From NCBI GenBank assembly GCA_030654835.1, contig JAURWS010000013.1:1-64000 (forward strand): a DNA stretch of 64,000 bases, in the 5' to 3' direction. Below, piece by piece: positions 22,531 through 33,574 of this stretch; the first letter of the stretch is position 1; each line of letters starts with the position of its first letter. This stretch comes from Gammaproteobacteria bacterium (GTDB lineage Bacteria > Pseudomonadota > Gammaproteobacteria > Pseudomonadales > Pseudohongiellaceae). The position numbers and the translations under genes were made by a program. Under the pieces are notes generated by a model. The model was not told the DNA's origin, made no database searches, and saw nothing but the letters and a program-made list of their open reading frames with translations.

Positions 22531-22589
22531 TGTGGGAGCGGGCCTGCCCGCGATATTTTGTTCGATCGCGGGCGAGGCCCGCTCCCACA
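22531..22589. repeat. REP pair (BIME), GTGGGAGCGGGC family
   Basis: TGTGGGAGCGGGCCTGCCCGCGAT ... ATCGCGGGCGAGGCCCGCTCCCACA. Confidence 0.9.
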
Positions 22590-28011: not shown

Positions 28012-28088
28012 TGTGGGAGCCTGCCTGCAGGCGATTTCTTGATGCAACTACTGCGCATTGAGATATCGCCTGCAGGCAGGCTCCCACA
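28012..28088. repeat. REP pair, TGTGGGAGCCTGCCTGCAGGCGAT family
   Basis: 28012..28035 and its inverse at 28065..28088. Confidence 0.9.
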
Positions 28089-30808: not shown

Positions 30809-30877
30809 TGTGGGAGCGGGCCTTGCCCGCGATGGGGCGTAGCACACAGTCAATCGCGGGCAAGGCCCGCTCCCACA
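30809..30877. repeat. REP pair (BIME), GTGGGAGCGGGC family
   Basis: TGTGGGAGCGGGCCTTGCCCGCGAT ... ATCGCGGGCAAGGCCCGCTCCCACA. Confidence 0.92.
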
Positions 30878-30888
30878 GGGTGTACGGA

Positions 30889-31977
30889 TCAGCCGTTGCG
30901 CTTCTCGAAGTCTTTCATGAAGTCCACCAGCTTCTGGCAGCCTTCCACCGGCATCGCGTTGTAGATGGAGGCGCGGATGCCGCCGACCAGACGGTGACCC
31001 TTCAGTGCATACAGGCCCTGCTTGTTGGCTTCGCTGACGAAGGTGTCGGTCAGCTCGGGCTTGGCGATGTTGAAGGTCACGTTCATCACGGAGCGGTGAT
31101 CCTTGTGGGCAGAGCCGATGTAGAAGTCGGTGCTGTCGATGGCATCATAGATCAGCTTGGCTTTCTTCTCGTTCTGAACCTGGATGGCATCCACACCGCC
31201 TTGTTCTTTCAGCCATTCCAGCACCAGCATCATCATGTAGATGGCAAAGGTGTTGTTGGTGTTGTAGAGCGAATGGTTCTTCGCATACACGGAGTAGTCG
31301 AGCAGCGAAGGCGTGTACGGCAGCGCGTGGCCGAGCAGATCCTCGCGGATCAGCACCAGTGCCATGCCGGCCGGGCCAAGGTTCTTTTGCAGGCCGGCGA
31401 AGATCACGCCGAACTGATTGTAGTCGAGCTTGCGTGACAGCAGCTCGGAGGTCATGTCCGCCACCAGCGGGATGCTGCCGGTGTCGGGGAACTGCTGCCA
31501 GCGGGTACCGAAAATGGTGTTGTTGCTGGTGATGTGCACGTAGGACGTGTCGGCATCCAGCGCTTGCGGATCGAAGGCGGGGATGCGGTCGTAGTTGGTC
31601 GCTTCGCTGGTGGCGGCGCAGATCACGTTGCCAAAGCGAGAAGCTTCTTTGCGGGCCAGCATGGCGAAGTTGCCGGAGTCGACATAGGCGGCCTTGTGCG
31701 CGGGCTTCAGGTTCAGCAGGTTCAACGGGATGGCAGAGAACTGCATCTGCGCACCGCCGTGGACGTACAGAATCTTGTAGTTGTCGGGTATGCCGGAGAG
31801 CTCTTTGAACAGAGCGTCGGTTTTGTCGATGACGGCATCGAATTCCTTGCAGCGGTGGCTGATCTCGATGAGACCGGCGCCCATGCCTCGGAAGTCGAGG
31901 AATTCGTCGCGAGCTTTCTCCATTACAGACGTTGGCAACATGGCCGGGCCGGCCCCGAAGTTAAATACGCGTGTCAT
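30889..31977 (-). CDS. serC: Phosphoserine aminotransferase
   Basis: MTRVFNFGAGPAMLPTSVMEKARDEFLDFRGMGAGLIEISHR. Confidence 0.96.
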   Translation of the reverse strand: MTRVFNFGAGPAMLPTSVMEKARDEFLDFRGMGAGLIEISHRCKEFDAVIDKTDALFKELSGIPDNYKILYVHGGAQMQFSAIPLNLLNLKPAHKAAYVDSGNFAMLARKEASRFGNVICAATSEATNYDRIPAFDPQALDADTSYVHITSNNTIFGTRWQQFPDTGSIPLVADMTSELLSRKLDYNQFGVIFAGLQKNLGPAGMALVLIREDLLGHALPYTPSLLDYSVYAKNHSLYNTNNTFAIYMMMLVLEWLKEQGGVDAIQVQNEKKAKLIYDAIDSTDFYIGSAHKDHRSVMNVTFNIAKPELTDTFVSEANKQGLYALKGHRLVGGIRASIYNAMPVEGCQKLVDFMKDFEKRNG

Positions 31978-32027
31978 AGTGGTTTCCTGGGTTACTAGTT
32001 TAAAAACTGGTTTGGGCTTGGTGGCGT

Positions 32028-32176
32028 GGGGCAAGAGCGCGGGGTTGGCAGGGGTGTGGGGTTGGCAGGTGTGACACGCCGTGAACCCATCCATGGGGGC
32101 TCGCCTTCGCCATCCATGGCTCAGGACGGTCACACCTGCCAACCCCACACCCCTGCCAACCCCGCACTCCTGCCCC
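32028..32176. repeat. Inverted-repeat element 1: 43-bp arm, 63-bp core, 43-bp arm
   Basis: Arms 32028..32070 and 32134..32176 complementary with 2 mismatches; core 32071..32133 GTGACACGCCGTGAACCCATCCATGGGGGCTCGCCTTCGCCATCCATGGCTCAGGACGGTCAC. Confidence 0.92.
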
Positions 32177-32271
32177 CTCAAGTCCAGTGGCAGCGTTTGG
32201 CTGCGGGCGTACTGCAATGTTGTTTTGTGCTTGCTCTTCAGTGGCAGCCTGCCGATTACTGATGAGCTTCG

Positions 32272-32386
32272 AGGAGAGTTGTGGTGCCTCAGGCACTGTG
32301 ACCGTCTTGAGCCATGGATGGCGAAAGCGAGCCCCCACGGATGGGTTCACGGCGTGTCACAGGGCCTGAGGTACCACAACTCTCCT
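32272..32386. repeat. Inverted-repeat element 2: 23-bp arms, inverted copy of the same 63-bp core
   Basis: Arms AGGAGAGTTGTGGTGCCTCAGGC and GCCTGAGGTACCACAACTCTCCT (1 mismatch); core 32298..32360 is the reverse complement of core 1 with 3 mismatches in 63. Confidence 0.92.
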
Positions 32387-32395
32387 TACACTGAT

Positions 32396-33574
32396 CTAAA
32401 GAACAGTTACCTTGATCACATCCTGAATAGCGGCAATTTCGGCCAGTGCTGCATCGGACGGACGGGTCGCCACATCGATCAGATTGTAGGCGATCTCGTT
32501 GCGGCTCTTGTTGATCATGTCCACCACGTTGATGTTCTGATCCGCCAGAATCGACAGAATCTGCCCCAGCATCTTCGGCACATTCTTGTTGCTGATCGCA
32601 ATACGGGTTCCCTTAACAGCATTCGCCGCGCGATCCAGGCTGATACTTGGGAAATTCACCGAATTCCTGATATTGCCGTTTTCCAGGAACTCCATCAGCT
32701 GATCCGCCGCCATCACCGCACAATTGTCCTCGGCCTCATCGGTGCTGGCACCGATATGCGGCATCAGGATTACGTCGTCACGTCCGATCAGTTCCGCGCA
32801 GGGGAAGTCTGCTACGTACATACGCAGTTGCTTGTTGTTCAGACCTGCCACGATCGCCTCGGTGTTGACGATCTCATCACGCGAGAAGTTCAGCAGGCAC
32901 AGGCCTGGCTTCATGGCGGCGACCATGTCGGCATTGATCAGGTTGCGAGTGGCTTCCATTACTGGCAGGTGCAATGTCACGAAATCAGAGTTGGCCAGCA
33001 GCGAAGTGATGTTCTCGATCTTGCGCACTTGGTTGGGGAGGCGCCAAGCGGCATCCACGGAGAGAGCAGGGTCATAACCAAGCACGGTCATGCCCAGGCC
33101 GATGGCCATCTCGGCGACCAGCGAGCCAATGGCGCCAAGGCCGATGATGCCCAGCGTCTTGCCGGCGATCTCGCCACCCTTGAAGCGAATCTTCTCCTGC
33201 TCCAGCAGCTTGGACATCGCGGTATTGTCTTTCATGTCGAACAGCGAGTTCACGTAGGCGATGCCCGGCAGGATGCCGCGTGAGGACAGTAGCAGGCCAC
33301 ACAACACCAGTTCCTTCACGGCATTGGCGTTGGCGCCAGGGGTGTTGAAGACAACGATGCCCTTCTCCGTGTAACTGGCAACGGGGACGTTGTTGACACC
33401 GGCGCCCGCACGGGCCACGGCTTTGAGGTTCGGGTTGACATCGCTGTCCTGCAGCTTGTGGCTGCGCACCAGAATGGCGTCGGAGCTGGCTATGCCGGGG
33501 CCGACTTCGTAAGTGCCTGGGAAGCGCACGAGGCCTTTGCTGGAGATCTGGTTGAATGTCTGAATCTTGAACAT
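32396..33574 (-). CDS. serA: D-3-phosphoglycerate dehydrogenase
   Basis: GKTLGIIGLGAIGSLVAEMAIGLGMTVLGYDP, ACT-type C-terminus. Confidence 0.93.
   Translation of the reverse strand: MFKIQTFNQISSKGLVRFPGTYEVGPGIASSDAILVRSHKLQDSDVNPNLKAVARAGAGVNNVPVASYTEKGIVVFNTPGANANAVKELVLCGLLLSSRGILPGIAYVNSLFDMKDNTAMSKLLEQEKIRFKGGEIAGKTLGIIGLGAIGSLVAEMAIGLGMTVLGYDPALSVDAAWRLPNQVRKIENITSLLANSDFVTLHLPVMEATRNLINADMVAAMKPGLCLLNFSRDEIVNTEAIVAGLNNKQLRMYVADFPCAELIGRDDVILMPHIGASTDEAEDNCAVMAADQLMEFLENGNIRNSVNFPSISLDRAANAVKGTRIAISNKNVPKMLGQILSILADQNINVVDMINKSRNEIAYNLIDVATRPSDAALAEIAAIQDVIKVTVL

Follow-up and report, generated by a model that had tools for sequence, protein, structure and literature searches.

Paired TwoAYGGAY-type RNA elements between serC and serA: a conserved tip on rewritten stems and a putative CsrA sponge

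Two hairpin elements lie between a serC-like and a serA-like gene in the window, i.e. the whole stretch of 64,000 nt that was analyzed. Both genes are on the minus strand, serC lies about 50 nt downstream of element 1, whose RNA reads toward it, and the serA-like gene is present in 13 of the 14 genomes of the genus. The right-hand open reading frame is called serA-like after a preliminary description of this DNA. From left to right, the features are:

30889..31980, minus strand: serC-like gene, left neighbor, start approximate (ORF 30889-32217, start read as MTRVFNFGAGP)
32028..32072, minus strand: element 1, 3' arm of the RNA (45 nt), inverted repeat with 32132-32176, holding one copy of a 17-nt duplication
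32073..32131, minus strand: element 1, conserved RNA tip, two predicted hairpins with ANGGAN loops (core search and covariance models)
32132..32176, minus strand: element 1, 5' arm of the RNA (45 nt), inverted repeat holding the matching 17-nt duplication
32177..32271, no strand: spacer between the two outward-reading RNAs; such spacers have no promoter enrichment
32272..32299, plus strand: element 2, 5' arm of the RNA (about 28 nt), unique in the genome except for its partner arm
32300..32358, plus strand: element 2, conserved RNA tip, predicted loops AUGGAU and ACGGAU, within a TwoAYGGAY match at 32267-32392
32359..32386, plus strand: element 2, 3' arm of the RNA (about 28 nt), inverted repeat with the 5' arm
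32396..33574, minus strand: serA-like gene, 392 aa, right neighbor (ORF), used as a marker for orthologous sites

The cores at 32071-32133 and, inverted, at 32298-32360 are 95% identical across 63 nt, which bears out the 3 differences counted in the preliminary description. That description had also given self-complementary arms of 43 and 23 bp; the self-complementarity stands, and the real lengths are slightly greater. Outside its tip, element 1 (minus RNA strand) has 45-bp arms (48 nt, 96% complementary, if the closing GTGAC/GTCAC is partly included), and those of element 2 (plus RNA strand) measure about 28 bp (31 nt, 94%). A chance origin of these cores and folds is excluded, because a 20-nt core pattern matches twice in the window against 0.03 expected and the RNA fold z-scores of the pair are -9.7 for one element and -16.3 for the other. 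Separately from the hairpin elements, the window also holds the REP-like sequence GTGGGAGCGNGCCTNC in three REPIN-like inverted pairs (22532-22588, 28013-28087, and 30810-30876). At the serA-serC site of another genome (G005, L120), one arm and the first tip letters are left while the core and the other arm are gone, apparently by deletion.

The core is found in 44 places of the window's genome (G000) by BLAST, and in 52 by a covariance model built from 25 copies. In the genome search that the preliminary description had proposed, nearly all copies turn out to have long, self-complementary, nonhomologous arms. All 14 genomes of the genus carry the element, with 17–50 copies each, and other genera range from 0 to 75 copies, the highest number being that of genome G020. 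A second covariance model, from 80 diverse copies, has matches in 78 of the 370 gammaproteobacterial genomes sampled, representing 67 of 273 genera, and a pattern scan of named genomes is positive for Xanthomonas, Stenotrophomonas, Halopseudomonas, Marinobacter, Microbulbifer, Rheinheimera, Shewanella, Sodalis, and others. At the sensitivity of the searches used, plasmids, phages, E. coli, and viral contigs yield no element match. Most sampled sites are common to the window's genome and to G012, G010, and G009, the last three being fragmented assemblies. Several contigs of the window's genome (C32, C33, C36, C37, and C57) start or stop in or near hairpins, which indicates that draft assemblies break there.

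Close neighbors read outward in 16 of 16 cases in the window's genome and 10 of 10 in the complete relative G029. The genus sample has 32 outward cases among 33 and the named genomes have 30 among 42, with arrays of pairs a possible source of the opposite order in the latter. Exceptional arrangements also occur. For example, a metagenome-derived genome (L177) has tandem tips that all share one orientation, unlike the outward pair, and one fused copy (L260 / L044, C45:29871) has two inverted tips joined at CCATCCATGG, as recombination between the members of a pair could produce. At five loci of the window's genus (L061, L046, L063, L088, and L110), inverted REP-like sequences flank or adjoin the hairpin element, an arrangement that looks like nesting in a REPIN.

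Over 269 copies drawn from many species, the median arm has 26 pairs, and pairing is lost when arms are exchanged between copies (median score 45.5 vs 4.5). Within the window's genome, the best arm identity between copies is about that of shuffled arms, except for the two members of one pair, and even with up to 3 mismatches allowed the element 2 arm matches nowhere else in the genome. The 5' arms are rich in G, the 3' arms in C. Arm lengths fall into two groups, with about 13% of copies short or broken, nearly all the rest at least about 20 bp and almost none between, by a lenient count that overstates length. A fixed core on unrelated self-complementary stems, as the preliminary description had it for the two window copies, is thus a general property of the family, and its remark that this differs from the conserved ends of REP and MITE patterns holds too, as arms are unrelated between copies. 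It had named shared arms, or cores lying mostly without arms, as outcomes that would speak against this picture; both are absent in the genus, and Xanthomonas copies do share arms.

Across species, the tip reads GACCGU - hairpin 1 - AG - hairpin 2 - GUGUC. The stem of hairpin 1 varies freely and covaries, with a loop mostly of ANGGAN type, and hairpin 2 follows GCC-YMC-ANGGAN-GKR-UUCAC-GGC. Among distinct tips, the loop and closing pair of hairpin 2 correspond to CANGGANG, with 99–100% agreement at each fixed position and free N positions, and the GGA-to-GGA spacing between the two loops is 23–25 nt. In a structure alignment that takes in 9 bp of arm per side, 92.3% of cells pair under the two-hairpin structure vs 64.8% when shuffled, the covariation score is 0.673 vs 0.161, and both-side changes occur in 23 of 28 pairs. 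Both the sequence and the structure of the tip are conserved, whereas conservation of the stem is limited to its pairing and, mostly, to a length of at least about 20 bp. When the 80 diverse copies are folded thermodynamically, 56 keep both GGA mostly unpaired, and in the other 24 they are not both unpaired. For copies of the CTTGAGCC type, including both in the window, energy-only folding prefers a rod without the two hairpins, and the two-hairpin tip predicted for the window copies rests on the covariation of the family. Some tips (L252, L258, L304, L296, and L391) have an insertion of about 50–90 nt in hairpin 1, and in the window's genus the hairpin 1 insertion often reads GCAGAAAAATGCTCCTGCATTTTCTGC, itself a hairpin.

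This anatomy recalls the Rfam family TwoAYGGAY (RF01731), described, in the part of the published account available, as two loops on a poorly conserved external stem with proposed CsrA binding, and listed from human gut, gamma-proteobacteria, and Clostridiales. Two AYGGAY hairpins on such a stem are what we find, with the Y positions actually free (N). The RF01731 model matches element 2 at 32267-32392 with 31.7 bits (curated cut-off 43), a score that alone is weak because miRNA models score such stems as highly. Matches of those miRNA models were themselves set aside: any long perfect hairpin scores, and they fall far under their cut-offs. A ten-genome search, however, gave 16 RF01731 matches in the window's genome and 3 in G029, every one of them at a copy that our model had also found, with strands in agreement. 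One of the G029 copies reaches 43.5 bits, above the cut-off, and 14 control genomes have no match. On these grounds we regard the elements as members, or very close relatives, of this candidate RNA family. Other copies score below the cut-off, at which RF01731 misses nearly all of those present here. A literature search with the element sequence found no relevant paper.

The RsmA motif is CANGGANG, and the CsrA SELEX consensus is RUACARGGAUGU, with dimer bridging over 10–63 nt. The tip matches the RsmA/RsmE motif and the CsrA consensus, and its 23–25 nt spacing falls inside that range. The loops, GGA, and spacing of a CsrA/RsmA-binding RNA are all present in the family, with energy-only folding hiding the loops in the window copies, and from this we propose that the tip binds CsrA/RsmA. 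A single CsrA gene is present in all genomes compared, with or without the element, so its presence does not discriminate. The same RNA could instead offer its tip to another protein, or act as a regulatory or catalytic RNA, the CsrA motif being coincidental. The lack of correlation with CsrA would suit such a role, as would the conserved junction letters GACCGU, AG, UUCAC, and GU, which exceed the known needs of CsrA; it sits poorly with two loops that both carry the CsrA motif, are free at the N positions, and lie at a dimer-suited spacing, and we consider it unlikely.

That the RNA matters is shown by the arm mismatches. On the AYGGAY strand, G·U wobbles number 261 vs 42 A·C, and copies collected by a core-only pattern that ignores the arms give 169 vs 20. 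For a hairpin acting at the DNA level, G·T and A·C mismatches should be equally common on both strands at any base composition, and arm-to-arm copying cannot make a G·U excess. We take the asymmetry as selection on RNA of the AYGGAY strand, a level of selection that the preliminary description lacked. A DNA cruciform reading is opposed by the same excess on one strand. This also bears on the view that the hairpins work as DNA, i.e. as the ends of a REP/REPIN-like single-strand transposon moved by a Y1 (RAYT) transposase, with the outward pair as the unit. The fixed orientation of the inverted pairs, the location of copies near gene ends as for REPs, and the position of some between inverted REPs all fit this view. 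It conflicts, beyond the G·U excess, with arms that are not conserved, unlike REP stems, and with sites common to species. Dependence on RAYT is rejected, as G020 has 75 copies and no match to Y1 (PF01797), and we hold the DNA-level view improbable.

Elements often lie 10–80 nt from a stop codon, and convergent gene pairs are favored over divergent ones by about 50 to 16, a count based on mechanical gene calls and on orthologous loci that are not independent. Single copies are about equally sense (~24) and antisense (~26) to the neighboring genes, and neither the spacers nor the sequences upstream of elements have a promoter signal or enrichment. The gene-end location is what would be expected of a transcription terminator or a 3'-end barrier of the mRNA, as proposed for REPs, in which the hairpin alone matters. 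Yet there is no U run after the stems listed and no sense-strand preference, and a simple barrier needs no conserved 59-nt tip, which makes this function quite improbable.

Orthologous sites give a record of how the arms change. Of 46 comparisons whose arms could be used, 25 show a mean arm identity of 93%, and in 21 both arms have been rewritten and are 32–70% identical (groups of 9 and 12, means 0.66 and 0.46). The flanks are similar in all arm groups (0.90–0.95, ~93%), pairing stays at 0.94–0.96, and the 21 rewritten comparisons hold 171 double vs 18 single pair-keeping changes. These alignments point firmly to joint rewriting of the arms in many lineages while the flanks hardly change. Misassembly joins unmatched arms and cannot easily make new matched ones; 2 loci with mismatched arms near contig ends (L062 and L270), possible assembly chimeras, were excluded from the evidence. 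Some orthologous arms have patchy homology and a length change near the core, with the stem base kept, so that what looks like a single rewrite may have been a rapid series of events.

Each arm of element 1 holds a 17-nt duplication, the two being exact reverse complements, and both are missing in G012 and G010. A single template switch, or a duplication followed by arm-to-arm copying, would explain it. In a template switch one event rewrites both sides of a stem (PMC8794818), and this is the likely route of arm rewriting. Copying of arms from elsewhere in the genome was rejected, as the element 2 arm is unique and none of the genome's other sampled copies offers a donor arm. The preliminary proposal of a hairpin-capping or replication-slippage module that creates or retains palindromic arms is right in that something rewrites both arms together. 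A purely selfish palindrome, held symmetrical by template switching in replication with no RNA function, has in its favor that arm-to-arm copying is visible and can maintain palindromes by itself (PMC8794818), but it is very improbable and largely refuted by the G·U asymmetry, since copying cannot favor G·U over A·C, nor would it conserve the tip across the class.

The element also appears to have moved as part of larger units. In G069, the RNA lies inside a 208-bp unit (L388:1500-1709 and other loci) with 19–22 bp terminal inverted repeats, CTAAATACGTGTTCCGAAT, which have 123 genomic matches. Three such units at different loci are 99% identical, and some units lack the core or have insertions in hairpin 1. 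Within G069, shared terminal repeats and signs of recent movement would fit a MITE; no target duplication was recognized. Xanthomonas has recurrent whole pairs that share both arm sequences, some of them in a tandem array with a 303-bp period. Recent-looking spread thus goes with shared arms and old-looking copies with unrelated arms. These patterns suggest spread by transposition of larger units in some lineages and by amplification of pairs in Xanthomonas. The preliminary idea that the 63-bp core is mobile by itself does not hold up: no hop was seen, most sampled sites are common to related species, and recent movement involves the larger unit or the whole pair. Two further points were missing from that description, the family identity now supplied by RF01731 and the pair rule, under which the window copies form a standard outward pair.

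Taken together, we give roughly even chances to the reading that the two window copies are a dispersed structured RNA, i.e. a high-copy form of TwoAYGGAY with paired-stem turnover and a putative role as CsrA sponge. Under this sponge reading, the two CANGGANG-type loops would hold one CsrA/RsmA dimer, and copies that are transcribed would work either as sponges for CsrA or as sites where it acts locally. The long stem, free in sequence, would be a stiff double-stranded support for the tip, which RNase III might set free by cutting the stem; of the features of a CREE-like RNase III substrate, stem length alone fits. As DNA, the long hairpin would provoke template-switch errors in which one arm is overwritten by a copy of its partner, so that the arms turn over, with selection keeping only the paired outcomes. 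The fuller picture, a network of transcribed CsrA/RsmA decoys that spread as miniature transposons, became fixed at their sites, and have whole stems rewritten by hairpin-templated copying, is possible but doubtful. CsrA binding does not explain the outward pairing, for which we have no good explanation.

If these readings are right, a candidate TwoAYGGAY RNA becomes a high-copy repeat in about one-fifth of sampled gammaproteobacterial genomes, and its orthologous hairpins, seen before and after joint arm change, form a natural record of RNA stem rewriting. Such a record bears on the long-standing question of how compensatory changes originate.

Among known systems, TwoAYGGAY is like the elements described here in its two AYGGAY-type loops, its poorly conserved external stem, and Rfam matches that coincide with our copies. 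The available part of its published description does not present it as a dispersed repeat, as paired, as carried by miniature transposons, or as rewritten in its stem, and what we describe is a known family in a form not described in the literature examined: dispersed and paired, with stems rewritten and the tip kept. REPs and REPINs are also high-copy intergenic palindromes found in inverted pairs near gene ends. However, REPs have conserved stems or ends and depend on RAYT (PMC3116915), whereas here the stem is free, with unrelated arms and no conserved or tagged end, the tip is fixed, selection acts on RNA, and a 75-copy genome lacks RAYT. The CREE/NEMIS miniature repeats of Neisseria form RNA hairpins that are bound or cut by RNase III (PMC2649163); their terminal inverted repeats are conserved, while the stems here are unrelated between copies. 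RsmZ, RsmY, and CsrB likewise present GGA in hairpin loops and are proposed to sequester RsmA/CsrA, but they are single sRNA genes with many sites, as opposed to about 50 dispersed copies with two sites each, and identity with an RsmZ-like sRNA was rejected, the narrow RsmZ model having no match in the window's genome. Finally, template-switch mutations of stems, in which one event changes both sides (PMC8794818), resemble the arm changes described here; those are a mutation process, whereas here whole stems of 15–20 bp differ at orthologous sites.
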